Origin: a virus
Direction: 5' to 3' (one strand)
Length of the DNA: 31,838 bases
IMG/VR virus record: IMGVR_UViG_3300034068_000029
Span: 1-31,838 of that record
Numbering within the stretch: position 1 is the first letter of the stretch; every line of letters begins with the position of its first letter. This document shows positions 1 to 26,986 of this stretch, one piece after another. A model generated the notes under the pieces. The model saw only the letters and a program-made list of their open reading frames with translations. It had not been told where the DNA came from and made no database searches. The position numbers were made by a program, and so were the translations under genes.

Positions 1-3000
1 AGCGCTCTGGCTAAACCACCCTGCGCAACTTTAACTGCCACCGCACCTACTGTGCCTACACCCATCTCAGCACCTATAGTAAAGGCGTTGGTCAAAGTGT
101 CACGAACAAAGTTCATTGGCGCAAACGCTATGTTATAGCGGGTGTGGAACTGCCCCATTAAACTAGTTGTATTATTTAGAGCGTCAAGTAAAGGCTGGGA
201 TGCACGATAGCTACGACGGACAGCCTCACGAATCTTAGGATCATAAATAGCATAAATATCTATTGAGCCATCTGGGTTGTAATGGAAAAATGTATTTTCT
301 CCCCTAGTAAGAACTTCATCATCGGCAACCTTATAGCGGTCTTCAAATTTAACAGTTTTTAACTTCTTACCTTCTAATAATTTCTTATCTATTGCGTTTT
401 TAATAGCTAAGGTAATACCGTACTGTTCTGTTGTACCGTCAGGATTAGTGTATGTACCACCCCTACCAGCGCGCAGCGCAGCGCGCACTCCATCGGACAA
501 ACTTTGGAGTAATGGGTTTTCAGACTCAGATACACGACCATCAAAACCAACTTCTTTTTCTTGCAACTCACTACCGTTAGATTTACTGCTAAAATCTAGT
601 AAGTCGTCAATTTTAGATTCTTTTTCTTTTCTATCTGGTTTGCCTTTTAACGGCACATAATTTTCAAACCCATAAAAAGCCACAATATTACTGACAGGTT
701 CAGACCAGTAATTAGCTTTTTTATTAAGTTCAATAGTAGCTTTATGAATTTCTTGTAATGCATTTTTAATTGAATCTACAAGTTCTTTGTCTGGCGCGTA
801 GTATTTATTTAAAATATCATCACGAATCTGCGGACGAATACCTGCTACGTTGTAATAGTCAGAAGTCTCATCTAAAGAAAAATTAGAATTTGGTTCAGCA
901 TTAAAGCCAAATCCTTTTTCTTGCTTATTGTTAGCTACTAAAGTCTCTAAATAGGTGCGCAATTCTTTAGCAGTAGCTTCACTAATCCTATTTGATCTTA
1001 CTGCTTTTAATATAGTTTCTCGTGTCTCAGCTGCTTTAGCATTTAAAGGTACGCTAAGTAAATACTTAACATGTCTACGCTCTTGTTCGTGCAGTGCAAC
1101 AAAAACACCTTGTAGTTGTTTTAACGCCGTTTCTTCATCTATGTTTTTTGCTTTTGCGTAGTTACCAATTGCTTCATACAAAGCGTTAGACGGGTTGTAC
1201 ATTTTGACAAGAAACTCATCTTCAGCCCGCCCTGTAGACAACGCAATTTGAGTATATATAGCAGTCGTGTCGTCACCAGAATAAGTCATTTTATTAGCCA
1301 TAGCTAATAAGTCTTCCCAATTTTTAATGGGGTAGCGTTCATTCTGAAATAATCTTACTAGTTCTTTAACACCTGGTATGCTAGTAAAAGCTTTTCTTAC
1401 CTTTGAAGATGTTGGTTCTGGTTGTCCAGATATAGAAGACATAAAGTCTTCAGCTGATGTATAACTTTGCAGCTGTGGCATCAAAGGTTCTTTTGGTGCT
1501 TTGCCTTCTGCTACAGGAGCAAGAGCTGCCGTTGCTGGAGGTGGGTTTGTAGCCTCTAACGTACGACCTTCAGTCAAGATACTTTCTGTAGACACTAATG
1601 CGTAAGCCAAGGCTGTGAAGTCTTTACCTGGAGCAATACCAAGTAAATTTAAGATGTCTTTAACAAACTCAACAAAAGCATTAATTACAATATTGCCACG
1701 CTCGTATGGGAGGGCGTTTAATTGCGCTTGGAATTCAGGATTAGACATAGCCTCAGAGACAAACTCTGCAAGGTTCTTCATGCCGTACTTGTCTTTTAAT
1801 TCTGGATAAGTTTCTTTTAAGTGGTTGTATAACTTCTCAAGATTGGCAACGCCCTGATTAAACTTAACACCATCTTTGTGCGCTTTGATAATAGCTAGGG
1901 TGAATCCGTGCAGTGTTTCGTGCAGTACAACATGTGAAGTCATAGCGTCTTCACTAATGTAGGCTATATCTGTAGCTGCATCGTATTGCCCTAATTTGCC
2001 GCCAAGTTCACTAGTTGTTACCACACGTAGAGTAGGTAAGGTGTCTGACTCTAGTAAGCGTTTAGCTACTATCTTATCTAGCTTAGTAAATTGACCAGAA
2101 GTATCACTAGCTATTTCTTGCAAAGCACCACGCAAATCGCCGTGCATTAAGTTAGACATAAGCCCAATCGTAGTGCCACCACGCAACCCCTCTATAGCTT
2201 CTAAGTTAGCAGAACCGTAAGAAGGTATAGCCCTAAGCTCAGCCATTCTCTCTTCTATTAGAGACATCTTCTTAGGCACAGGAGGTTTACCAGCAACTTC
2301 TTTAGCTTCGGCTTTTTCTGCTTTAACTATTTTTTTGTATTCTTTTGGCGTGTAAACAACGCCTGGAATTACTTTACTCTTACGCTGAAGCATAGGTTTA
2401 GCTTCTTTAAACTCCAGCAAAGATTTATATTTTGCTACGGCGGTATCTACCATAGCCTTTTCTTCTGGGGCTAGAGCGTTATATCTATCAGCTGTTTTAC
2501 CAGAAATTAAATCTGTCGCTGCCTCTTTAACGTTCTTGACAGATTGCTTAGTTTTAACAACTTCTTCATCAGTAGGTTGTGCTGCTTTTAATTTTTGTTC
2601 TTCTCGCGCAGCAATAGCTTTAGGATATAAGTCTTCCTCAGTCACTCTAGGTTCAATAAACCTTCTTTCTGTTCCTGAAGTAAATGCAGATTCACCCATA
2701 AAAGGTTTTGGTGCAGGTGCTTGGTCTACTGCAGCTTGGTCTACTGCAGTTGTTTTTAGTGCCTGTAATTTATCTATTACTGAATTTGGTGTGTCTTTTG
2801 GCGTAACCTCAATACCATTTTCTTTTGCAATCCGTTTAAGATTGTTAGTCATCATAGCTGGCGTACCACCAGCTTCTACGCTTTTTAATAGCTCTTCAGC
2901 CTCAGGGGTTAATGTACGCTGCTGTTCCGCATCTCCAGCTCCAGCCTGCTCTGTAGTACCTCCAACGTCAGCCACTCCAGGTCGCTCAGATGCTGCAACT

Positions 3001-4343
3001 TCTGTGGGGGTTCCAGTTGCAGTGGGTCCGCCAAGTACTTCAGCGCCAACTCCACCTCCTGTAGTGTCAGTTCTGTCAGTAACATCTTGACCTCCTTTTA
3101 CGTCAATCGTTTCTTCTTCAGCTTTTTTAGTCTTACCTTCTGCTTCAGCTATGATTTCATCAGCTGTTAATTTACCCTGTACTGGAGCCGTTTCTGTTGT
3201 TGTGGGGGGAACTACGCCAGGTTCAGTAGTAGTTACAGGGGCTTGTGGCTCTTTCTGCCCAAACGGAATGTTAGTTATACCGCTAATTGCACCACCACCA
3301 ATACCACCTTTAAGTCCAGCATTGATGAACCGTTCAAAATTCTGTTCAGTAAAAAACTGTTTATTGTTATCTACAAATTTCTCAGCCGCAGCTGATGACA
3401 TCTCTTGAACTGCTTCCGTTGCGCCTTCTGTTGCAAAGCCTGTTAATACGCCCTTGCCTGCTCGTTTGTACCAAGCACCAATAAGTTCTTTCTCGGTAAG
3501 CCCAATACCTTTAGCCTTGCGCAATAGTGCTATAGGGGTGATTGCATCTAGTACGGAGTTAAAACCACCAAACAGAAGCGCAGCGCCAAGGTCCTCTTTG
3601 CCTGTTTCTTCAGCAACATTCTGGTAAACCTCAGGTACGTTTTGTATAGCTGAGCCACCCACTGCACCTACCGCTTGGTATTTAAGTGCTGTTTTTTGCG
3701 CCGCTTCACGTCCTGCTTTTACTCCAGCTTCTAAAGCTACAGTTTTAATAGCATCTAAAGTTTCTTTTTGCCCACCATATGCACCAGATTTTATTGCTGC
3801 TTGTACGGAATCTTTCATCAATTCACGCTTAGCTGCATCTGTAGCAGCTTTCTTAGCAGCTTGTTCTGCGGCTACCGCTGCACCACGCCCAACAACACCT
3901 GCAACGCCACCTGTAAAGATAGACGGGAGAATAGACGGAATTAATTCGCCAACTGACTCAACTATATAAGTTAGTAAATCATCTCCACCCTTAATATTTG
4001 TATAGCTAGGTACAGCTGATGGATACATTTGCTGTATGTATTGCTGTGCTTCTTGGGCTTCTTGCATCTGCCTATTAGCGTAATCGCCCGCACCCTGTAT
4101 TCCTATCTTCTCCCCAACACGCCCAGCCATAGCTGGTAGTACGTCCCCTACAAGCGACTGGAGACCCAGCGCACCACGTTTAACGGCGGGAACAAATGAA
4201 CTGATACCAGTTGCTGGTTCAGGGGTATATTCAGGGATAGGCGCTTCTTGGCTAGCAAGATAACTTAATATTTTACTTTTTGCTACATCAGGATCAGTAT
4301 CAGTTATCTCATACTTTTGCCCTTGATATTCGTAAATAGGCAT
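1..4343 (-). CDS. Large polyvalent virion protein with HExxH zincin domain (3' end outside window)
   Basis: An uninterrupted reading frame of 1447 codons starts at ATG 4343, preceded by AGGG six bases upstream, and stays open to the left edge, so the C-terminus is missing. Residues 125-165 are hydrophobic/Ala-rich (possible membrane-active segment). Residues about 370-600 are Pro/Thr/Glu-rich and low complexity. HETLH at 808-812 is a zincin signature, and Glu860 or Glu864 in EFVSEAMSNPEF is a plausible third zinc ligand. Residues about 1405-1420 (FAPMNFVRDTLTNAF) resemble the conserved core of LPD38-type domains of phage polyvalent proteins. Such proteins are known to be packaged and injected with the genome to act on host targets. 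It follows three internal-virion-type genes, which fits an ejection protein. The protease role is inferred from the motif; the LPD38 match is from memory of the family, not a search. Confidence 0.85.
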   Translation of the reverse strand, partial: MPIYEYQGQKYEITDTDPDVAKSKILSYLASQEAPIPEYTPEPATGISSFVPAVKRGALGLQSLVGDVLPAMAGRVGEKIGIQGAGDYANRQMQEAQEAQQYIQQMYPSAVPSYTNIKGGDDLLTYIVESVGELIPSILPSIFTGGVAGVVGRGAAVAAEQAAKKAATDAAKRELMKDSVQAAIKSGAYGGQKETLDAIKTVALEAGVKAGREAAQKTALKYQAVGAVGGSAIQNVPEVYQNVAEETGKEDLGAALLFGGFNSVLDAITPIALLRKAKGIGLTEKELIGAWYKRAGKGVLTGFATEGATEAVQEMSSAAAEKFVDNNKQFFTEQNFERFINAGLKGGIGGGAISGITNIPFGQKEPQAPVTTTEPGVVPPTTTETAPVQGKLTADEIIAEAEGKTKKAEEETIDVKGGQDVTDRTDTTGGGVGAEVLGGPTATGTPTEVAASERPGVADVGGTTEQAGAGDAEQQRTLTPEAEELLKSVEAGGTPAMMTNNLKRIAKENGIEVTPKDTPNSVIDKLQALKTTAVDQAAVDQAPAPKPFMGESAFTSGTERRFIEPRVTEEDLYPKAIAAREEQKLKAAQPTDEEVVKTKQSVKNVKEAATDLISGKTADRYNALAPEEKAMVDTAVAKYKSLLEFKEAKPMLQRKSKVIPGVVYTPKEYKKIVKAEKAEAKEVAGKPPVPKKMSLIEERMAELRAIPSYGSANLEAIEGLRGGTTIGLMSNLMHGDLRGALQEIASDTSGQFTKLDKIVAKRLLESDTLPTLRVVTTSELGGKLGQYDAATDIAYISEDAMTSHVVLHETLHGFTLAIIKAHKDGVKFNQGVANLEKLYNHLKETYPELKDKYGMKNLAEFVSEAMSNPEFQAQLNALPYERGNIVINAFVEFVKDILNLLGIAPGKDFTALAYALVSTESILTEGRTLEATNPPPATAALAPVAEGKAPKEPLMPQLQSYTSAEDFMSSISGQPEPTSSKVRKAFTSIPGVKELVRLFQNERYPIKNWEDLLAMANKMTYSGDDTTAIYTQIALSTGRAEDEFLVKMYNPSNALYEAIGNYAKAKNIDEETALKQLQGVFVALHEQERRHVKYLLSVPLNAKAAETRETILKAVRSNRISEATAKELRTYLETLVANNKQEKGFGFNAEPNSNFSLDETSDYYNVAGIRPQIRDDILNKYYAPDKELVDSIKNALQEIHKATIELNKKANYWSEPVSNIVAFYGFENYVPLKGKPDRKEKESKIDDLLDFSSKSNGSELQEKEVGFDGRVSESENPLLQSLSDGVRAALRAGRGGTYTNPDGTTEQYGITLAIKNAIDKKLLEGKKLKTVKFEDRYKVADDEVLTRGENTFFHYNPDGSIDIYAIYDPKIREAVRRSYRASQPLLDALNNTTSLMGQFHTRYNIAFAPMNFVRDTLTNAFTIGAEMGVGTVGAVAVKVAQGGLARA

Positions 4344-12439: not shown

Positions 12440-12696
12440 TTTTTAGACCTTTCTTCTAGCAATTTAACCCGTACATGAAGCTCATGGAGTTCTTTGTATA
12501 GCTCTTCCCGCATTTTGGCTCTGCGCTCGGCTGATATTGGGCTATCGGTGGGTACGCCCTCGCTTGTAATTAGGGCTGGCATCTTACCCTCTATCTGAGT
12601 AAGACGGGTTTGGAATGAGGATACTTGACCGAGTAGCCACGCTATACAGGCTACAAGAATCGGAATAACCGCCTTTAGTACGTCTTGCATATTCAT
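12436..12696 (-). CDS. Small membrane-anchored coiled-coil protein (spanin- or holin-accessory-like)
   Basis: An 86-residue protein with one N-terminal hydrophobic segment (about 8-25, VLKAVIPILVACIAWLLG), a linker with Pro, and a charged C-terminal helix (58-86, REELYKELHELHVRVKLLEE) that should form a coiled coil. This layout fits an inner-membrane spanin subunit or a holin regulator, and the gene sits directly upstream of the holin with an ATGA overlap. No lipoprotein partner (outer spanin) is visible in any frame I read, so spanin function is a guess from architecture and position. Confidence 0.75.
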   Translation of the reverse strand: MNMQDVLKAVIPILVACIAWLLGQVSSFQTRLTQIEGKMPALITSEGVPTDSPISAERRAKMREELYKELHELHVRVKLLEERSKK

Positions 12697-13145
12697 TTTT
12701 TAGACCCCCATACAATAAAATAAGCAATCCAACCTGCTGCCAGAAAGCACCAGAACTGCACCCACTTAACCTTTTCTAACTCCGCATCAAAGTACTTGCG
12801 GTCTTCCTTCTCTAGCCGTTCAATCTCGGTCTTGATGTCTAGCACTTTTTGCCACTCTTTAGTGCCGTGCTGCTTTATAAAGTCCACCCTTAATTTGTAC
12901 TCTTCATCGCTTATCTTCTTGCGGTGTTTGTACTCCTCAAGGGCTTTGAATATTGCCCGTTCCTTCTTAAACTCTGCTTCTCTACGCTCACGAATCTTTG
13001 CTTGCGCTTGCTGTCTTGCTACATCTACCGCTTCCTTCTGTACTTCCTCGATGTTCTTGCCAATCTCTCGCCCAGCCTCTCGACCAGTCTTAATCCCTTC
13101 GCTTATGCCCTTTGCACCAGCAGATAGTCCGAGTTCGTCTGACAT
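12693..13145 (-). CDS. Coiled-coil protein with C-terminal membrane anchor, lysis-region
   Basis: The 150-residue product starts MSDELGLSAGAKGISEGIKT and has a long highly charged helix (about 20-125, repeated Glu/Lys/Arg) ending in a single hydrophobic segment (128-146, VQFWCFLAAGWIAYFIVWG) and GSKK. A tail-anchored protein with a cytoplasmic helical domain fits the sequence. It overlaps the next lysis gene by ATGA and begins the lysis group. The Shine-Dalgarno is weak: AAGG lies about 16 bases from the ATG, so translation may depend on the upstream gene that ends eight bases before. Function is unknown; lysis control or virion-membrane interaction are possibilities. Confidence 0.75.
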   Translation of the reverse strand: MSDELGLSAGAKGISEGIKTGREAGREIGKNIEEVQKEAVDVARQQAQAKIRERREAEFKKERAIFKALEEYKHRKKISDEEYKLRVDFIKQHGTKEWQKVLDIKTEIERLEKEDRKYFDAELEKVKWVQFWCFLAAGWIAYFIVWGSKK

Positions 13146-13153
13146 GATTCAAT

Positions 13154-13366
13154 TTAGAACACCTTTCCGCCAGCGGCAGGTACAGAAGTAGCATGAATAG
13201 ATATATGCTGTTTAAGATTCAAAGGAGCGTTGCAGTCTGAGCAGGTATCTGCCTCTAGCTCGGCTTTATCTAAGTCGTAACCACAAGCGGCACAAACCAC
13301 TTCTATTTCGTGGTGCGGCTCAATTAAACCGCCTTCTAGTGTTCTAGCTTCTATAGTTTGTTTCAT
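13154..13366 (-). CDS. Small zinc-ribbon protein
   Basis: A 70-residue protein with CAACG (25-29) and CSDC (42-45), spaced to bind one zinc ion as a ribbon. The ends are short and lack other motifs. The gene overlaps the end of the kinase/nucleotidyltransferase gene by four bases (ATGA). Small zinc ribbons in phages often bind nucleic acid or polymerase, but nothing here chooses a partner. I do not recognise a specific family. Confidence 0.75.
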   Translation of the reverse strand: MKQTIEARTLEGGLIEPHHEIEVVCAACGYDLDKAELEADTCSDCNAPLNLKQHISIHATSVPAAGGKVF

Positions 13367-14190
13367 GTTAGCCCCATTTCTTTACGGATCTTGGTTGCTG
13401 AAATATTGTGCGTTGCATCATCAAAAGTCTCTTGCTCAATCTTGTAGCCAACGTCACGCCCGTAGGTAATGTTGGTAATATTAGGAACGACCTGAATCTC
13501 GTATTGCCCTTGAAACAACGGGTCTAAGTCTCTCTTAATGTTAGCTTTTACCTGCTCGATAGCAAATGGGTTGCTACCCTGCCAGCCCTGACAATCACGG
13601 ATCTGGATAACTACTTGACCCGTCTTGGCAATGGCTCGCTCAAACAAGGCTCTATGACCTGGATGCCACGGTTGCCATCTACCCAGCATCTGTACTGTTT
13701 CAGATTGCCAGTTAAAGGTAGGGCGTCTGCGGTTCTCAATAATGTGGTTGCCAATGAACTCAGCCCACTTCTCGCAGTTCTGCTCCGTAACACGGAAGTC
13801 ATATACTGTTGGCGGAATAAAGGCTTTGTTGGTATCCTCGTAACGACCAGCATCAATGGTATCCATCCAGATAGTCCAGTCGGCTTTGAAGTTATTACGC
13901 ATCTCTACGAGTGGTGCTACAAAGTCGCAGATAACATAATCACCGCCAGCTTCTAATGCAAACTGAGCCATACGCAAAGATTGACGAATACGACCAGCAT
14001 CTGTAAAGTCCCAGTCGTTGTATTTCTTACGAACCTCATCTGCATTGAACCAGTTAACCTGTGCGTTAAAGCTAGTAAAGGATTCGCCATAGTCTTTGCG
14101 AGTACCGTTTGTCTCTAGATACTTCTTTAAGGCTTCGGCTAAGTAAGTTTTACCTGAACCTGGCAAACCCATGATTAGTATCTTTTTCAT
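13363..14190 (-). CDS. Bifunctional APS-kinase-like / HxGH nucleotidyltransferase fusion
   Basis: This 275-residue protein has two domains. The N-terminal P-loop kinase (1-150) shows GLPGSGKT (8-15), NADEVR (49-54), DFTDAGRIRQSLRMAQFAL (61-79) and DFVAPLVEMR (89-98). The last two align with the APS-kinase pattern (…R…N…R…A, then 'FISPY…R'). The C-terminal domain (165-275) shows GRWQPWHPGH (170-179, the HxGH site), SNPFAIEQ (206-213) and ISATKIR (263-269), as in NMN/cytidylyl-type nucleotidyltransferases. If the kinase acts on APS it makes PAPS, the donor for the sulfotransferase encoded 2.2 kb upstream. Alternatives are a nucleoside/polynucleotide kinase or a NadR-like NAD enzyme with reversed domain order. 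Its ATG abuts the upstream stop codon. Confidence 0.9.
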   Translation of the reverse strand: MKKILIMGLPGSGKTYLAEALKKYLETNGTRKDYGESFTSFNAQVNWFNADEVRKKYNDWDFTDAGRIRQSLRMAQFALEAGGDYVICDFVAPLVEMRNNFKADWTIWMDTIDAGRYEDTNKAFIPPTVYDFRVTEQNCEKWAEFIGNHIIENRRRPTFNWQSETVQMLGRWQPWHPGHRALFERAIAKTGQVVIQIRDCQGWQGSNPFAIEQVKANIKRDLDPLFQGQYEIQVVPNITNITYGRDVGYKIEQETFDDATHNISATKIRKEMGLT

Positions 14191-14892
14191 TTATCTCTCT
14201 AAGTTATCGTTTCTAATAGTAGAACGTCCTTCTAATGGTCTACCAAGAATGGTTGTATTTGTTTTGTCATTATCCCAGTCATTGTAAGCAAAAATACCCA
14301 TCTGATGAATTGGGAATATATCTGCTCGCAACATAATGTCAAGCGGTGCGTTAATACCATACTTCAATACATGAGCAAGCATATTCTTTGCTACCGCTGG
14401 GTCAATAGCATAGCTGTGCGCTCGACAAATAAAATGATAGTTTGAACCTTCTGAAGCGTGTGGCGGTGTAGGTAATACCTTCCATCCTTGATTAACTTGT
14501 TCGTAACTACCCAAATAACAAATTGAATTAAATACTGAGTGTTGCGTGTAAGGCTTCACCATAATGGCATCATGCTCTAAAATAACAATTGGTTCATCGT
14601 CAAGCACACACTTCTGCCATAGGCTAATATGAGATAAGGCACAGGCTACTTCACCACGAGTTAAATAATGGTCGGTTACTTTTACCATTGCTGGAATACC
14701 ATTATGTTGAGTAGGTGGTTTTATTGGGTCTTTTATACCGTTATAAGCATCCCAGTATTCCCATGCCATACCTGCTAAATCACAACTATCTGCACATCGT
14801 TTTGCTTTTTCCTCTGATTCAACATGATGTTCAATGCGAATAATATAGGCTTTAGAAACGATTAAGTTGTAACTGTAATTAAGAGAAATCAT
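14191..14892 (-). CDS. Glycosyltransferase, GT25-like (LPS-type)
   Basis: A 233-residue protein with the GT25 signature: LTRGEVACALSHISLW (77-92), then VILEHDAIMV (103-112). The last holds a Glu-x-Asp metal/nucleotide-sugar site (LEHD where the family usually has LEDD). RAHSYAIDPAVAKNML further on is also typical of this family. GT25 enzymes add galactose or similar sugars to lipooligosaccharide or proteins. Its ATG overlaps the stop of the RCC1-propeller gene (TAATG at 14892), with only a weak Shine-Dalgarno, so translation is probably coupled. Placement between a probable adhesin and the APS-kinase-like gene suggests it modifies virion proteins or host surface glycan; the substrate is unknown. 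Confidence 0.85.
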   Translation of the reverse strand: MISLNYSYNLIVSKAYIIRIEHHVESEEKAKRCADSCDLAGMAWEYWDAYNGIKDPIKPPTQHNGIPAMVKVTDHYLTRGEVACALSHISLWQKCVLDDEPIVILEHDAIMVKPYTQHSVFNSICYLGSYEQVNQGWKVLPTPPHASEGSNYHFICRAHSYAIDPAVAKNMLAHVLKYGINAPLDIMLRADIFPIHQMGIFAYNDWDNDKTNTTILGRPLEGRSTIRNDNLER

Positions 14893-15992
14893 TAATCTTC
14901 TACACCAATCATAAAACTACCAGCTCTACAGGAGCTTATTTTAGACCAATTATCAGAACCAACTTGAACAGGAGAAGAACGATTGATTGTATCGCCTAAA
15001 CCTAATTGACCACTGCCATTGCTTCCCCATGTCCATAAAGTTTTGTTTGTTTTAATAGCACCCTTGTGGTATCCACTTGATACCGTTAACCAAGTATCAC
15101 TTCCAATTTGAACAGGAGATGAACGTTGAATTGTTGTATTATCACCTACTGCTCCAGTAGAATTACCACCCCATCCCCATAGAGTTCCGTCTGTTTTAAG
15201 AGCAGCACGAGTACCAGTACCATTTGCTGAAATAAATGACCAATCAAGTAATGAGCCTATTTGAACAGGAGAATCAAATTGGGTATAACTATTAGTGCCT
15301 AACTGACCTGAACCTGGAAAACCCCATGCAAAAAGCGCCCCATTTGTTCTTATTGCGTGTTCTCCATTATCACCAAGAGCTACGGAAGACCAAGAACCAG
15401 CAATCTGTACTGGAGACTTGATAGGAATACCAGTAGTTCCTTGACCAAGCTGTCCATTGCCATTATTGCCCCAGATCCATAAAGAATTATCAGTTTTTAT
15501 AGCAGCGCCCGCACGAGTACCGCCAGATACCTTTGCCCAAGTTAGCAATCCTCCAACTTGAGTAGGAGATGAGCGATCAACCTCATCTCCTTGACCTAAT
15601 TGACCTGTAGCATTTGGTCCCCATGTCCATAAAGATCCATTTGTTCTTACAGCTACACAAGCACCAGCGTACATAGTATTACTTACGCTAGACCAATCCA
15701 TTAAAGCTCCAACTTGAGTGGGGCTGGATCTTGCAACTCTATCATTTTGACCAAGCTGTCCTTTGTAGTTATACCCCCATGTCCACAGAGTGCCGTCAGC
15801 TTTAATAGCAGCAACACCATTACCACCACCGCTTATAACAGTCCATTCCTCATTATCTACTTGAACAGGAGAAGAACGAGAAATTCTATTATTTTGACCT
15901 AATTGACCAGCATTATTATAACCCCAACTATACATAAATGGAATTTGTGCTGCGCCAATGGAAGCTAATAAACCTTGAAGGATGCCAGTCAT
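14892..15992 (-). CDS. RCC1-repeat seven-bladed beta-propeller protein (probable tail adhesin)
   Basis: The 366-residue product is almost entirely RCC1 repeats. The WG-x(5)GQLG core recurs with Trp at residues 23, 72, 124, 174, 223, 274 and 322, about every 50 residues, and each is followed by RSSPVQ or a close variant. Seven repeats are the number of blades in a complete RCC1 propeller. The first 18 residues (MTGILQGLLASIGAAQI) are hydrophobic/helical and may attach the propeller to the virion. It follows the fibre-associated small gene with GAGAG as a ribosome site. RCC1 repeats are best known in eukaryotic and secreted bacterial proteins. A ligand-binding role at the tail tip is inferred from fold and from the fibre genes around it. 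Confidence 0.92.
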   Translation of the reverse strand: MTGILQGLLASIGAAQIPFMYSWGYNNAGQLGQNNRISRSSPVQVDNEEWTVISGGGNGVAAIKADGTLWTWGYNYKGQLGQNDRVARSSPTQVGALMDWSSVSNTMYAGACVAVRTNGSLWTWGPNATGQLGQGDEVDRSSPTQVGGLLTWAKVSGGTRAGAAIKTDNSLWIWGNNGNGQLGQGTTGIPIKSPVQIAGSWSSVALGDNGEHAIRTNGALFAWGFPGSGQLGTNSYTQFDSPVQIGSLLDWSFISANGTGTRAALKTDGTLWGWGGNSTGAVGDNTTIQRSSPVQIGSDTWLTVSSGYHKGAIKTNKTLWTWGSNGSGQLGLGDTINRSSPVQVGSDNWSKISSCRAGSFMIGVED

Positions 15993-15994
15993 TT

Positions 15995-16426
15995 TTACTC
16001 TCCCAATGCGTTAATATCTTCGTGCGTTACAGCAGAATTTATAGCATCTATGCGAGCTTCAAACAAAACACGAGCTGCGTCAACTGTGGCAGCGTTATAT
16101 TGTGTTTCAGGATATGCGTCTGTTTCTTTTGCAATTTCTGCATTAACTACAGATTTAAATACTTGTTTAACCATATTTCGTAACATATCTTTACGTTCAT
16201 CTATCGTAATTTCACGTTTCCCCCAAACAATCTGTGCTGGAGTTACATCAAGATTAAAATGATGCGTAGTTACTATTTCACGATTTGGGATTGTCTCTGG
16301 TATTAGCTCAACCGCTTCACGCCAGCCAGGTTCATTGGCTATTTTTTCATCCGATGGCTTGTAATCCAAAACGTTTAATATTTGACCGTCTTTTACCCGA
16401 ATCCAAAAGCCCGTTTTCGTAAGCAT
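15995..16426 (-). CDS. Small tail-fibre-associated protein (assembly/chaperone-like)
   Basis: A 143-residue protein whose start is fixed by a strong Shine-Dalgarno (AAGGAG, seven bases before ATG 16426). This places the first 80 bases inside the end of the sulfotransferase-glycosyltransferase gene in another frame, an unusually long overlap for this genome. The N-terminal half (GFWIRVKDGQILNVLDYKP) is beta-rich. The C-terminal half (ERKDMLRNMVKQVFKSVVNA, 77-onward) is helical and repetitive in Asp/Ala. The size and layout recall small tail-fibre assembly proteins, and it sits between the fibre and the propeller genes. I do not recognise a named family. Confidence 0.8.
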   Translation of the reverse strand: MLTKTGFWIRVKDGQILNVLDYKPSDEKIANEPGWREAVELIPETIPNREIVTTHHFNLDVTPAQIVWGKREITIDERKDMLRNMVKQVFKSVVNAEIAKETDAYPETQYNAATVDAARVLFEARIDAINSAVTHEDINALGE

Positions 16427-18161
16427 TGCGTAACTCCTTTTTCAAATTACTAAAGACTGATACCCAGTCGTTATGATTTTTTTGACGAAACAGCTTAACG
16501 CTGTCATACCACTCAGTCCCATTTCCAGGTTTAGCCCACAAATAGTAGGGCAAAATTGGAACTACAATCCATGTTGGTATTCCCATTGCACCAGCTAAAT
16601 GCGCTACTGATGTACATGAAGTAATTACAAGATCACAAGATGCAATAGTTTTTGCCGTTGCATCCCAACTTGAAAGATCTGATTCTTTTACCCAAACTGG
16701 GCAATGTTCAGAACCCGCATCACGTTGAAGACTTATGTATTCAACATCTAACCCATCAACTGCATTAAACATAAATTGAGGTGGGAATAAACGGTGTTGT
16801 TCGTGTTCAAACTGTGGATTTCCTTGCCAGCGCAGACCAATCCTAATCTTGTTACTTTTTTCTACATCAGGACGAGGTATATAAGATGATCCATCAATAT
16901 TTTTATATTGCCATTGAAGCGGTATAGACGCTGTCATAGATGGAACCCAAAAATCATGCACAACACCAAACATAGCTTCATGTTGGATTACCATATCCAC
17001 ACCTTCAGCTTTTCTAATCATTGTTGCTAGTGATCCTGAACAAGCCACAACCACCTGATTACCAAGCCGTTTTAACTCACGGGCAAAACGCAGTCCATGT
17101 ATTTGATCTCCAAGACCAGCTTCAAGATTTAAAAGAGCAGTGCCAGTTTGTAATCCATCCCAAATTGGTGTTGGTACTTTTGGTACTTCATTGCCAAATA
17201 CTTTTTCAACTCGCCCACGATTAATTAACGTCATACCGTCAAGCAGATTACCATTACGCAATTCATACCAGCCTCGATTAAAAGCAGCACGATTATTTTT
17301 TGGTTCTTTAATTGCTAATTCTTGTAGAATTTTTTTGCTACCTTCAAAATCACCTATTAGGCTTAGTGCTAATTGTTTACTTAAAGGATGAATTTCTTTA
17401 TTTTGTAACGGGTCATCTCTCCAAAAACATGGCTGTAAAAAATTTTGATATAGATGTTCTAAAACATCTTTACTATTTTGATTGTGTTGTTTTTTTAGTT
17501 CTGGTTTTATGTCATGCAATCCTGGCAACTGCCATACTTCTTCATCTCGTTCTTTTGGCGCAGTTTTATCTAAATGATTAAAATCGTACTCAAAAGACGG
17601 TAACTCAAGAAATTCTTCAATGTTACGCAATTGTTTTTGTGGGTCTTTTACTAAGTCTTCATATTCAATAAACAAAAAACATGACTTGTCATAGTTATAG
17701 CCTAATTCCAACACTTGATAAGACTGTTTTAAATGATTGATTAGTTCACTGTTGTACAAAAAATCTTCTAGGTCAGTTGGTTTTGCAATCCTTACAAGCG
17801 ATGCCGCACAATCTTCTATATTTCTAACGGTAGCAATAATTTTGGGTTTGTAAGGTAGCAGTTCTTTTAATACTCCAAGAGTAGTTGATTCTGCCCAATT
17901 ACGAGCTTTGTCAATTACAACAGGTTTATCAATGTGTTTATAACGAGCATCCATCATCCCACACAGTACTGCTTTAACTTGTTCAATTTCGGTAGATGCT
18001 TGCTCCGCAGAACTGTTTTTCCATGCGTTAAATGTATTAAACATCAACTCACCAAGACCACTAGTGGCACTAGCGTGTAATGCTGGATGTTGATTTAATA
18101 AAGCAGCAAGAACAGTACTGCCTGATCTTGGAAGTCCCGCAAGAAAATGAAACTTTTTCAA
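16347..18161 (-). CDS. Sulfotransferase - TPR - glycosyltransferase fusion protein
   Basis: I place the start at TTG 18161: it overlaps the upstream stop as TTGA and has AGGAG ten bases upstream. A GTG at 18188 would extend it by nine residues. The 604-residue product has three parts. Residues 1-250 are a PAPS-dependent sulfotransferase: FLAGLPRSGSTVLAALL (6-22, the 5'-phosphosulfate loop) and ATVRNIEDCAASLVR (110-124, the 3'-phosphate site with Arg113 and Ser121). Residues about 260-320 form TPR-like helices. Residues 340-595 are a GT-B-type domain with NLEAGLGDQIHGLRFA (345-360) and CDLVITSCTSVAHLAGAMG (509-527), as in TPR-linked GT9/GT41-like enzymes. It probably sulfates and glycosylates a shared acceptor. 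Neighbours are the tail fibre and its accessory protein. Confidence 0.92.
   Translation of the reverse strand: MKKFHFLAGLPRSGSTVLAALLNQHPALHASATSGLGELMFNTFNAWKNSSAEQASTEIEQVKAVLCGMMDARYKHIDKPVVIDKARNWAESTTLGVLKELLPYKPKIIATVRNIEDCAASLVRIAKPTDLEDFLYNSELINHLKQSYQVLELGYNYDKSCFLFIEYEDLVKDPQKQLRNIEEFLELPSFEYDFNHLDKTAPKERDEEVWQLPGLHDIKPELKKQHNQNSKDVLEHLYQNFLQPCFWRDDPLQNKEIHPLSKQLALSLIGDFEGSKKILQELAIKEPKNNRAAFNRGWYELRNGNLLDGMTLINRGRVEKVFGNEVPKVPTPIWDGLQTGTALLNLEAGLGDQIHGLRFARELKRLGNQVVVACSGSLATMIRKAEGVDMVIQHEAMFGVVHDFWVPSMTASIPLQWQYKNIDGSSYIPRPDVEKSNKIRIGLRWQGNPQFEHEQHRLFPPQFMFNAVDGLDVEYISLQRDAGSEHCPVWVKESDLSSWDATAKTIASCDLVITSCTSVAHLAGAMGIPTWIVVPILPYYLWAKPGNGTEWYDSVKLFRQKNHNDWVSVFSNLKKELRNAYENGLLDSGKRRSNIKRFGLQAIG
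16434..16439 (-). promoter_or_regulatory. Ribosome binding site fixing the start of the overlapped small gene
   Basis: AAGGAG lies seven bases upstream of ATG 16426 although it is inside the preceding coding region. It is one of the strongest sites in the window and supports a genuine 80-base gene overlap instead of a later start. Confidence 0.8.
18072..18076 (-). promoter_or_regulatory. Placeholder-free note: no site assigned here; the AGGAG used by the TTG start is at 18172-18176
   Basis: No regulatory element is claimed for this interval. The relevant ribosome site for the TTG start at 18161 is the AGGAG at 18172-18176, listed separately. Confidence 0.02.
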
Positions 18162-19078
18162 GTTAACCCTGCTCCTGAAATAATCCACTCGGTACTTGTT
18201 AATTTAACGCACGTTGCTATACCATTTGCAGCAAGAGTTCTACTGCCTGTTGTGCCATCAACAGCTAAACGCATGGTATCGGTATTAATTGCGATCGTTA
18301 CCACACCAGCAGCATTTTGATTTATAAATGTAATAGCTGTGCCAACTGGATAAGCAACTGAGGAGTTAGCTGGAATGGTAAAAGTTCGTGCTGTGGTATC
18401 AGCAGATGGGTGAAAAATTTGTTTACCAGAATCTGTAAGAACTAAAGTATAAGCAGTAGATTGTGAATTTTGTGGAATATTGCGAAACCCAACTGCATCT
18501 GTGCCGTCTACAGTACAACTACTCAAAGTACCACTGGACGGTGTGCCAAGAACAGGAGTTACTAAAGTAGGTGAATTACTTAGCACTACATTTGTAGAGC
18601 CTGTAGAAGAAGTCACGCCTGTACCACCAGAAGCTACTGGTAAGGCTGAACCAAGAGTCAACGAACTGAGGTACGTAATTGCATCTACTACGTTTGTGCC
18701 GTTGTTATAGACAAACATTGACTTACCAGCAGCGACTGCAATGCCTGTACCTGACGTGTTCTTTACCGTAACGGCATCGGCTAAACCGTTGTTAATAAGG
18801 TATAACTTCTCAATTTGACAACCTGAACCAAGGATTAAGTTCCTAGCCCCGCCAGAAGTACCTGTAAGGTTTAGTCGTAGGTTACGAGCTGTTTGAGCCG
18901 CATTAGTATCTGTAAGGGTGACTGTAACGTCCGAACTAGAAAAGGCGACATCCGCAGACCCTGTGATTGCTTCGCTAATTGCAACAGAGAAGTTGTTGTT
19001 GGTCGTGGTTCCCCATGTACCTGTCTGGTCACCTGTACCAATCAGCTCTATTTTAAGATCACTATATGACGATGCCAT
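18158..19078 (-). CDS. Tail fibre protein
   Basis: The 306-residue protein opens MASSYSDLKIELIGTGDQTG followed by TWGTTTNNNF, an N-terminal virion-attachment signature I recognise in tail fibre/tail proteins of many aquatic phages. The centre contains PVASGGTGVTSSTGSTNVVL (147-166) and TLVTPVLGTPSSGTLSS, the Gly/Thr/Ser repeat type common in fibre shafts. The C-terminus is beta-rich and ends with TSTEWIISGAGLT. The start ATG has AAGGA upstream. The compact length suggests a short fibre that relies on partner proteins, such as the propeller and repeat proteins next to it, for receptor binding. Fibre assignment is from the signature, not from a host-binding assay. Confidence 0.88.
   Translation of the reverse strand: MASSYSDLKIELIGTGDQTGTWGTTTNNNFSVAISEAITGSADVAFSSSDVTVTLTDTNAAQTARNLRLNLTGTSGGARNLILGSGCQIEKLYLINNGLADAVTVKNTSGTGIAVAAGKSMFVYNNGTNVVDAITYLSSLTLGSALPVASGGTGVTSSTGSTNVVLSNSPTLVTPVLGTPSSGTLSSCTVDGTDAVGFRNIPQNSQSTAYTLVLTDSGKQIFHPSADTTARTFTIPANSSVAYPVGTAITFINQNAAGVVTIAINTDTMRLAVDGTTGSRTLAANGIATCVKLTSTEWIISGAGLT
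18172..18176 (-). promoter_or_regulatory. Ribosome binding site supporting a TTG start
   Basis: AGGAG ends ten bases before TTG 18161. Because the candidate GTG at 18188 lies upstream of this site and has no comparable site of its own, the TTG overlapping the preceding TGA is the better start. Confidence 0.65.
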
Positions 19079-25899: not shown

Positions 25900-26216
25900 A
25901 CCATCTTACCTTTGGTTTTGCCACGAATCTCACAGCCACCGCCACGTACTGACCCACCTTCTTTGCAATTCCAAGCCCGTAGGGACTTATTAATACGTGA
26001 ATCGGGATCGTTGGCTGTTTTAGCAGATGTGAGCTTTTTCTTCATGCCTGACATCCTTGCACAGAACGATTTCTTGCGTGAACCGCCTTCTGGTTGTGGA
26101 CGTTTTAAGCCAGGTTTGCCAGGATTGGCTGCATTGTAGGAGGCACGACCTTTAGCGTTTAAACCACCTTCAGGGTTTTTACCTTCCTTACGAGTCCATG
26201 CAGGGGTCTTAGCCAT
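25896..26216 (-). CDS. Basic protein, DUF6321-like, with C-terminal KGKT tag
   Basis: The 106-residue product starts MAKTPAWTRKEGKNPEGGLN followed by AKGRASYNAANPGKPGLKRP, a family I recall as DUF6321, common in aquatic phages. RKKSFCARMSGMKKKL (47-62) is also conserved. The C-terminus adds CKEGGSVRGGGCEIRGKTKG (84-103) and KMV. Three Cys (52, 84, 95) are present in a small basic protein. It follows the glycosyltransferase gene with a TAATG overlap. The family function is not known to me. Confidence 0.82.
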   Translation of the reverse strand: MAKTPAWTRKEGKNPEGGLNAKGRASYNAANPGKPGLKRPQPEGGSRKKSFCARMSGMKKKLTSAKTANDPDSRINKSLRAWNCKEGGSVRGGGCEIRGKTKGKMV

Positions 26217-26986
26217 TATGCAACATCCTTTTTAGCATCAAGAGGTCTAATAAGAGGATAGAGATACTCTTCTCCAAAAGAACCTGCAAACTCTTCCATT
26301 CCTAGATGACCTAGCTTAATGGTGGGGTCAATCCATACTTCGTAACCGTGAGCCGTAGCACGATCACAGAAAAGATAATCCTCGCCTACATAGCCTTCTG
26401 GAGTGGATTTGAAGTCAAAGAATGAATAGCAAAACTTGTCTGGATGCCCGTCTACTACTCGGTCATCGTGGTATTTCCACTCAGGATGGTTGTCTCTGAG
26501 GGTCTCAAATACGTCTTTACGAATCAACATAAAAGCGGTAGCAATCCGTTTAGCCTTAACTAATCCGTAGGAATTCATATAAATCCCGCCATCAGCATCT
26601 TGCTCTAAAGTCGATATATAGACTTGACCTTTTTTACGGGCAACAGGAACTCCGCCTACGATACCCTTCTTAGGGTCAGTATTCCACGCCATTAGACGGA
26701 AGATGTCTTGTGGGTTAAACGTAATGTCCGAATCAATAAACATTAAGTCTGTGCAGTCTGACGCTAAGAAGTCTTTAGCAATTAAGTTTCTGACACGAGA
26801 CACAACTGAGCATCCAGAGATGTTGCAAATTTGAATATCAATTCCGTGCTTAGGAGCTTCTACAGCAAACTGAGCCATAGCAATAGCCAGTTTGACTGAG
26901 ACTTTAAAGTCATAAGCGGGAAGACCAAGCATGACCTTCCTACCTACTAAGTTAAAAGAACCTTGAGCTTGCGTTGGATTATCCAT
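26216..26986 (-). CDS. GT-A-fold glycosyltransferase-like protein
   Basis: The 256-residue protein shows GT-A features: a Rossmann-like start (KVMLGLPAYDF, 17-27), LMFIDSDITFNPQDIFRLM (81-99) with Asp85-Ser-Asp87 as the DxD metal site, and GEDYLFCDRATAHGYEVWID (201-220) with the Gly-Glu-Asp acceptor-base motif. KLGHLG follows (224-229). GT2-type enzymes of this shape transfer sugars from nucleotide donors. Its start overlaps the preceding gene by eight bases, in the middle of the virion genes instead of near the other glycosyltransferases. Capsid or tail protein glycosylation is a possibility; substrate unknown. Confidence 0.85.
   Translation of the reverse strand: MDNPTQAQGSFNLVGRKVMLGLPAYDFKVSVKLAIAMAQFAVEAPKHGIDIQICNISGCSVVSRVRNLIAKDFLASDCTDLMFIDSDITFNPQDIFRLMAWNTDPKKGIVGGVPVARKKGQVYISTLEQDADGGIYMNSYGLVKAKRIATAFMLIRKDVFETLRDNHPEWKYHDDRVVDGHPDKFCYSFFDFKSTPEGYVGEDYLFCDRATAHGYEVWIDPTIKLGHLGMEEFAGSFGEEYLYPLIRPLDAKKDVA

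Follow-up and report, generated by a model that had tools for sequence, protein, structure and literature searches.

Why would a bacteriophage carry an enzyme for activated sulfate beside the genes of its tail fibre? The question is raised by a cassette in the uncultivated virus record IMGVR_UViG_3300034068_000029, of which a 31.8-kb fragment (positions 1 to 31,838, hereafter the window) was analysed; its coding strand is the minus strand, and all window coordinates below refer to that strand. An earlier note on this DNA had proposed that an adenosine 5'-phosphosulfate (APS) kinase-like domain (13363-14190) makes 3'-phosphoadenosine 5'-phosphosulfate (PAPS) and that a 604-residue fusion protein with a sulfotransferase (ST) domain (16347-18161) consumes it. 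Both open reading frames (ORFs) were recovered at these coordinates, but on the minus strand, which the note had missed; a plus-strand reading of the same coordinates was discarded, as it gives only stops. We consider it probable that the cassette is a phage-encoded sulfation system in which a nucleotidyltransferase (NTase) makes APS, the kinase makes PAPS and the ST transfers the sulfate. Many lake viruses of bacteria bear such a putative PAPS-making enzyme and an ST beside their tail-fibre genes.

The kinase and the ST are strictly linked among viruses. Kinase relatives are encoded on at least 592 viral stretches in our scan, of which 80 contigs were fetched and the 50 longest tested for partner genes. 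Sulfotransfer_3 is present in 42 of these 50 (40 above cut-off), and among the other eight, several are cut near the kinase or bear only the far end of the ST fusion described below, while at least one more, L064, with no Pfam match, has an ST-like gene before the kinase as judged from motifs. In each of the 54 loci examined, the two genes share a strand; the ST is upstream in 53, and the gap between them has a median of about 1.1 kb. Kinase-bearing contigs are 11 kb to 236 kb long, and some neighbourhoods look T4-like, judged from cluster sequences, which points to a travelling cassette and not to the synteny of one lineage. As a neutral same-lineage control, we anchored 41 contigs, each 10 kb or longer, on the downstream neighbour of the cassette (12693-13145), a lineage marker gene whose copies in the fetched relatives show 89-97% identity, one identical contig aside. 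The kinase occurs in four of them and the ST in three, all of which also have the kinase (Fisher 3.8e-4, kinship ignored); the one remaining contig with a kinase breaks off at that gene. The co-occurrence in related phages that the earlier note had named as a check is thus borne out. The idea that the kinase is a generic phage gene without any tie to the ST, suggested at first by hundreds of kinase matches against six ST matches, was overturned by the locus and control counts. Seen from the ST, an APS-kinase domain (E <= 0.001) lies in 24 of 47 ST-anchored contigs (23 above cut-off), fused to the NTase in 12 and alone in 12, one of these being cut by the contig end. The 11 intact kinase-only genes encode 136-171 aa and no NTase was detected in their loci, which suggests that it is the kinase on which the ST depends.

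Viral cysC genes are as a rule assigned to sulfate assimilation, and the usual interpretation of a viral CysC, together with CysH, would make the present kinase an auxiliary gene that serves this pathway in the host (PMC9529941, PMC8190135). This is highly improbable here, since the PAPS reductase family (CysH, PF01507) was found in none of the 50 longest kinase-bearing contigs, against 42 with an ST, and since the kinase sits inside a block of fibre and glycosyltransferase (GT) genes. The linkage indicates that PAPS in these phages would go to the ST, which changes the reading of such cysC auxiliary metabolic genes (AMGs).

Judged from its sequence, the ST half of the fusion is a PAPS-type sulfotransferase. 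Residues 15-199 match Sulfotransfer_3 (PF13469) at 71 bits against a cut-off of 27, and profile comparison with the PDB returned 4gox, a polyketide synthase ST (1.1e-13), the CurM ST (2.6e-10) and TPST1 (2.1e-9). The domain (17385-18146) holds both PAPS-binding motifs as the earlier note had quoted them, the 5'-phosphosulfate-binding (5'-PSB) motif GLPRSGST and the 3'-phosphate-binding (3'-PB) motif VRNIEDCAAS, whose key residues (G.PRSGST; V-R and the S after it) do not vary across 13 relatives. The 604-residue form begins at a TTG (18161), a plausible start with a 4-nt overlap between it and the stop of the fibre gene upstream; from a GTG the protein has 613 aa (16347-18188). The note recognised this ORF and its ST domain but not its ST-TPR-GT makeup. 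The TPR and GT-like region (16413-17384) reaches the cut-off of no Pfam family and gives weak TPR matches; Glyco_transf_9 was matched weakly (E 0.021) in only one of 12 members, short of the family score for a GT9/GT41-type TPR glycosyltransferase. A separate 265-aa ST and a TPR-GT protein of about 350 aa are encoded by neighbouring genes in L029-L031, L038, L039, L042 and L044.

Does the 275-aa protein (13363-14190; PHROG 10255, 'kinase') make the donor for this ST? Its kinase domain (residues 1-150, 13741-14190) matches Pfam APS_kinase (PF01583) over residues 4-102 at 28.9 bits against a curated cut-off of 21.1. When an AlphaFold2 (AF2) model (predicted local distance difference test, pLDDT, 80.8) was searched against the PDB with Foldseek, the entries at ranks 1-24 were without exception those of an APS kinase or an ATP sulfurylase/APS kinase; the kinase-domain profile likewise had APS kinase 2yvu as its best match (1.6e-10), with nearly all top matches being APS kinases. 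The conserved motifs are the P-loop GLPGSGKT, NADEVR and DWDF..GR.RQ..RM, and in profile alignments D51, R54, F62, R67 and R73 fall on conserved APS kinase positions. The P-loop, the D-x-x-R, the APS-site Phe and Arg residues and the fold are thus all present, while the Asn of the RxxN motif of APS kinases is Gln. A nucleoside or polynucleotide kinase, the identity that would have refuted the earlier note, was rejected as APS kinases outrank all others by fold and profile. The kinase very probably makes PAPS for the phage ST. The note's APS-kinase-like domain therefore stands, but its kinase-only view missed a C-terminal NTase, with which the protein becomes a candidate for a whole PAPS synthase.

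This C-terminal third (residues 160-275, 13366-13713) is a nucleotidyltransferase of the HIGH superfamily, with a PRK01153/nicotinamide mononucleotide (NMN) adenylyltransferase (NMNAT) match at 1.3e-5 and an NMNAT as profile match in the PDB (8.3e-9). Its conserved motifs are GR(W/Y/F)QP(W/F)HxGH, present as GRWQPWHxGH in the window protein, YGRxVGY and ATxIR, the last being part of ISATxIR in the window protein. The NadM/NatV models score far below their curated cut-offs (24.9 vs 127, 21.3 vs 181 and 22.8 vs 397 bits). In an alignment with archaeal NMNAT, the NTase, at about 110 aa, has no counterpart of the stretch that joins the VP(V)xDI strand to the final GY strand, the part of NMNAT that binds nicotinamide. 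Foldseek with the NTase alone gave nothing below 0.001 and a mixture of PPAT, NMNAT, pantothenate synthetase and ATP sulfurylase, so that the fold alone leaves its activity undecided.

Cellular relatives, which the earlier note had missed, point to sulfate and APS as the chemistry of the NTase. The bacterial genomes that encode the kinase/NTase protein are mostly SAR11, where the domains are fused, split into adjacent genes (L103, L106, L110) or apart. In 15 SAR11 loci (L315-L325, L328, L330-L332), a standalone NTase of 126-130 aa, 53-57% identical to the window domain, lies immediately upstream of aprM-aprB-aprA on the same strand, with gaps of 49-75 bp. In Allochromatium, the ATP sulfurylase gene sat lies directly before aprMBA (PMC3779200), and sat is lacking in SAR11 according to the literature (PMC5069961, PMC10356861). 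In our set of 147 SAR11-family genomes, AprA is above cut-off in 65, of which 59 have the kinase/NTase and three a canonical Sat (Fisher 1e-15, relatedness ignored). The kinase/NTase was counted at E < 1e-15, a threshold that shuts out weak P-loop matches, and a few of the matches are kinase only. As the NTase both occupies the sat position and tracks AprA, the data argue for sulfate/APS chemistry, and the domain is probably a non-canonical ATP sulfurylase interconverting ATP and sulfate with APS and pyrophosphate (PPi). The standalone form may be SAR11's missing Sat, and a 126-aa gene at this position (as in L315, 7619-7999) narrows the sat gap of SAR11 to one candidate enzyme. Half of the phage enzyme is related to a gene sitting where the ocean's commonest bacteria seem to be without a needed sulfur enzyme.

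Other cellular contexts were also noted. In SAR11, the NTase upstream of aprMBA usually comes after a gene of the TENA/PqqC family and genes for an MFS-type transporter and a PLP-type enzyme. In L354 (6422-7937; SAR11 genome G171, no AprA match), the NTase is followed by a TauE/SafE-like permease (sulfite exporter type, by eye) and not by aprMBA. The cellular kinase adjoins Sulfotransfer_1 genes in L097 and L107 and lies among polysaccharide genes of SAR11 in L098, L346 and L347, which is consistent with surface-glycan sulfation. A short pyruvate-kinase-like gene, assigned by eye, stands beside or near the kinase in the SAR11 polysaccharide islands of L334, L349 and L350.

The domains, their conserved motifs, the strict linkage of ST and kinase and the lack of PAPS reductase are computed observations, from which we infer both enzyme activities, the substrate of the NTase (sulfate) and the acceptor. 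The NTase domain would adenylate sulfate (ATP + sulfate to APS + PPi), the kinase domain would phosphorylate APS to PAPS, and the ST domain would transfer the sulfate of PAPS to an acceptor that is probably a sugar or a protein. The SAR11 NTase would run towards ATP, whereas that of the phage fusion would feed the APS kinase. The GT-like half of the fusion and the GT25 next door would probably contribute to making this acceptor, either on the tail fibre or RCC1 protein or on the host envelope.

Several observations weigh against this scheme. The association statistics ignore phylogeny, a few kinase contigs have no Pfam-recognised ST (e.g. L059 of G143, 162 kb, and L071 of G151, 236 kb), and about half of the ST-anchored contigs show no APS kinase, many of them being fragments. 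The APS_kinase match covers only profile positions 5-93 of 152 and ends at about residue 102, and the TIGR00455 apsK score is 21.5 bits against a cut-off of 138.7. The consensus lid of APS kinases is CExRDPKGLYKKA; the phage kinase has a shorter conserved GR(F/Y)EDTNKxFxxP in its place, and as this segment is replaced, the substrate of the kinase cannot be read off with certainty. The nearest sequence relatives of the NTase are NMNATs, closer than Sat. Canonical ATP sulfurylase (PF01747) has no match on the window protein and reaches 14.6 bits (E 0.02) against a cut-off of 24.3 on a standalone relative (L315), and direct homology with canonical Sat was rejected, as hhalign against SAR11 Sat gave a probability of 0.4%.

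The altered lid, together with some substrate-side residues unlike those of true CysC, would suit a fusion that makes a 3'-phospho-ADP-X donor other than PAPS, with the 'ST' transferring X. The Campylobacter O-methyl phosphoramidate route, reportedly described by Taylor and Raushel in 2018 (cited by PMC6429109) with a CysC-like kinase acting on cytidine diphosphoramidate, shares this logic of a nucleotidyltransferase, a CysC-like kinase and a 3'-phosphonucleotide-dependent transferase. However, the NTase relatives stand in an aprMBA context and the motifs and profile of the ST are those of ordinary PAPS sulfotransferases, and we regard such a donor as very unlikely. The NMNAT kinship allows another view, in which the kinase alone serves sulfation by converting host-made APS to PAPS and the NTase acts elsewhere, for example in the adenylylation of NMN or another phosphate ester as nicotinamide adenine dinucleotide (NAD) repair against host defence. 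Kinase-only genes do accompany the ST, and in Casjensviridae the kinase-NTase comes after a NADAR-annotated gene (Bhz60) or the gene at that position. This division of labour is unlikely, though less so than a donor other than PAPS, because the SAR11 NTase precedes aprMBA on its own and tracks AprA, the nicotinamide-binding segment is missing and the NMNAT family scores are far under cut-off. We therefore retain the sulfation cassette, with the NTase as its probable source of APS.

Among phage isolates, megablast with the window gave no match, and the kinase-NTase was found in five only. In the Casjensviridae phages L088, L090 and L091, it is 34-39% identical and follows the NADAR-annotated or same-position gene just mentioned; MazG and cysteine-dioxygenase-annotated genes are near, and the nearby annotation shows no ST.

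What is sulfated may be suggested by the neighbouring genes. Along the window, capsid and adaptor-type genes (Phage_capsid_4/Mu-gpT capsid and SU10-adaptor-type proteins) are followed by the fibre-like gene, the cassette and then lysis genes. In transcription order, the cassette runs from the fibre through the ST-TPR-GT fusion, a 143-aa protein, an RCC1 propeller, a GT25-like enzyme and the kinase-NTase to a zinc-ribbon-like protein, and its genes mostly abut or overlap. The GT25-like, RCC1 and fibre neighbours named in the earlier note were all recovered by ORF, Pfam and PHROG analysis. The tail-fibre-like protein (18158-19078; PHROG 31104, unknown function; cluster 4 in 45 loci) lies directly upstream of the ST gene, and its 'fibre' label rests on composition and position. 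The 143-aa protein (15995-16426; cluster 3 in 47 loci) is conserved and has no assigned function, the RCC1-repeat beta-propeller (366 aa, 14892-15992; cluster 2 in 55 loci) matches PF00415 at 184 bits over seven repeats, and the GT25-like enzyme (233 aa, 14191-14892; cluster 8 in 22 loci) abuts the kinase gene and matches the N-terminal half of PF01755 at 58.8 bits. The position next to the fibre gene and the GTs speaks for an acceptor that is a protein, or a glycan linked to the fibre or the envelope. That the virion rather than the host surface is the target is a tentative suggestion, and so are the effects on adsorption or immunity that the earlier note had proposed; a host-envelope target, as in superinfection exclusion, is no less plausible.

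Some cassettes (L045, L053-L057, L060, L065) carry UDP-galactopyranose mutase-like and methyltransferase-like genes, which suggest a dedicated glycan. Elsewhere in the window, a second glycosyltransferase-like gene (26216-26986) matches Glyco_transf_21 at 22.3 bits against a cut-off of 21.7, and a very large ORF of at least 1447 aa (3-4343) that runs past the window start resembles an internal virion or polyvalent protein.

Taken as one statement, our proposal is that widespread freshwater phages with a minimal PAPS synthase sulfate a fibre- or envelope-linked glycan or protein, and that the NTase belongs to a class of ATP sulfurylase, about 125 aa long, that has gone unrecognised and is also SAR11's missing Sat for sulfite oxidation by AprBA; we give this whole slightly less than an even chance.

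How does the cassette compare with known systems? Literature searches for a phage sulfation system gave nothing relevant. PAPS synthetases (PAPSS1/2, the Aquifex ATP sulfurylase-APS kinase and CysN/CysC) likewise join an APS kinase to a nucleotidyltransferase of the superfamily that contains ATP sulfurylase, and the kinase is N-terminal in human PAPSS as in the phage protein. However, the phage protein, at 275 aa, is about half their size or less, its NTase is NMNAT-like and outside PF01747, and its kinase lid is short. With NMN adenylyltransferase (NadM/NatV), its best sequence match, the NTase shares GRxQPxHxGH and NPF, but it lacks a middle segment of about 30 residues, stays far below the family cut-offs and stands in a sulfur or ST context rather than an NAD context, Casjensviridae possibly excepted. 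Its YGR(D) and ISATxIR are reminiscent of two loops of Sat, GRD and SGTxxR, but its HxGH loop reads GRxQPxHxGH where Sat has QxRNPxHxxH, and it has no detectable sequence membership, is far smaller and lacks the other Sat domains. The standalone SAR11 NTase occupies the same place before aprMBA as the dissimilatory Sat of A. vinosum (PMC3779200). Viral cysC AMGs also place an APS-kinase-like gene in environmental phages, but the kinase described here is coupled to an ST and, in 50 contigs, never to CysH. Finally, PF13469 sulfotransferases such as TPST and the CurM ST and the phage STs of the S-SKS1, S-SCSM1 and OM43 phage genomes have the same domain and PAPS motifs; phage STs were reported earlier with a function described as 'unclear' (PMC10580990), whereas the ST of this cassette adjoins a TPR-GT protein or is fused to one, and its partner is a putative phage PAPS-making enzyme.

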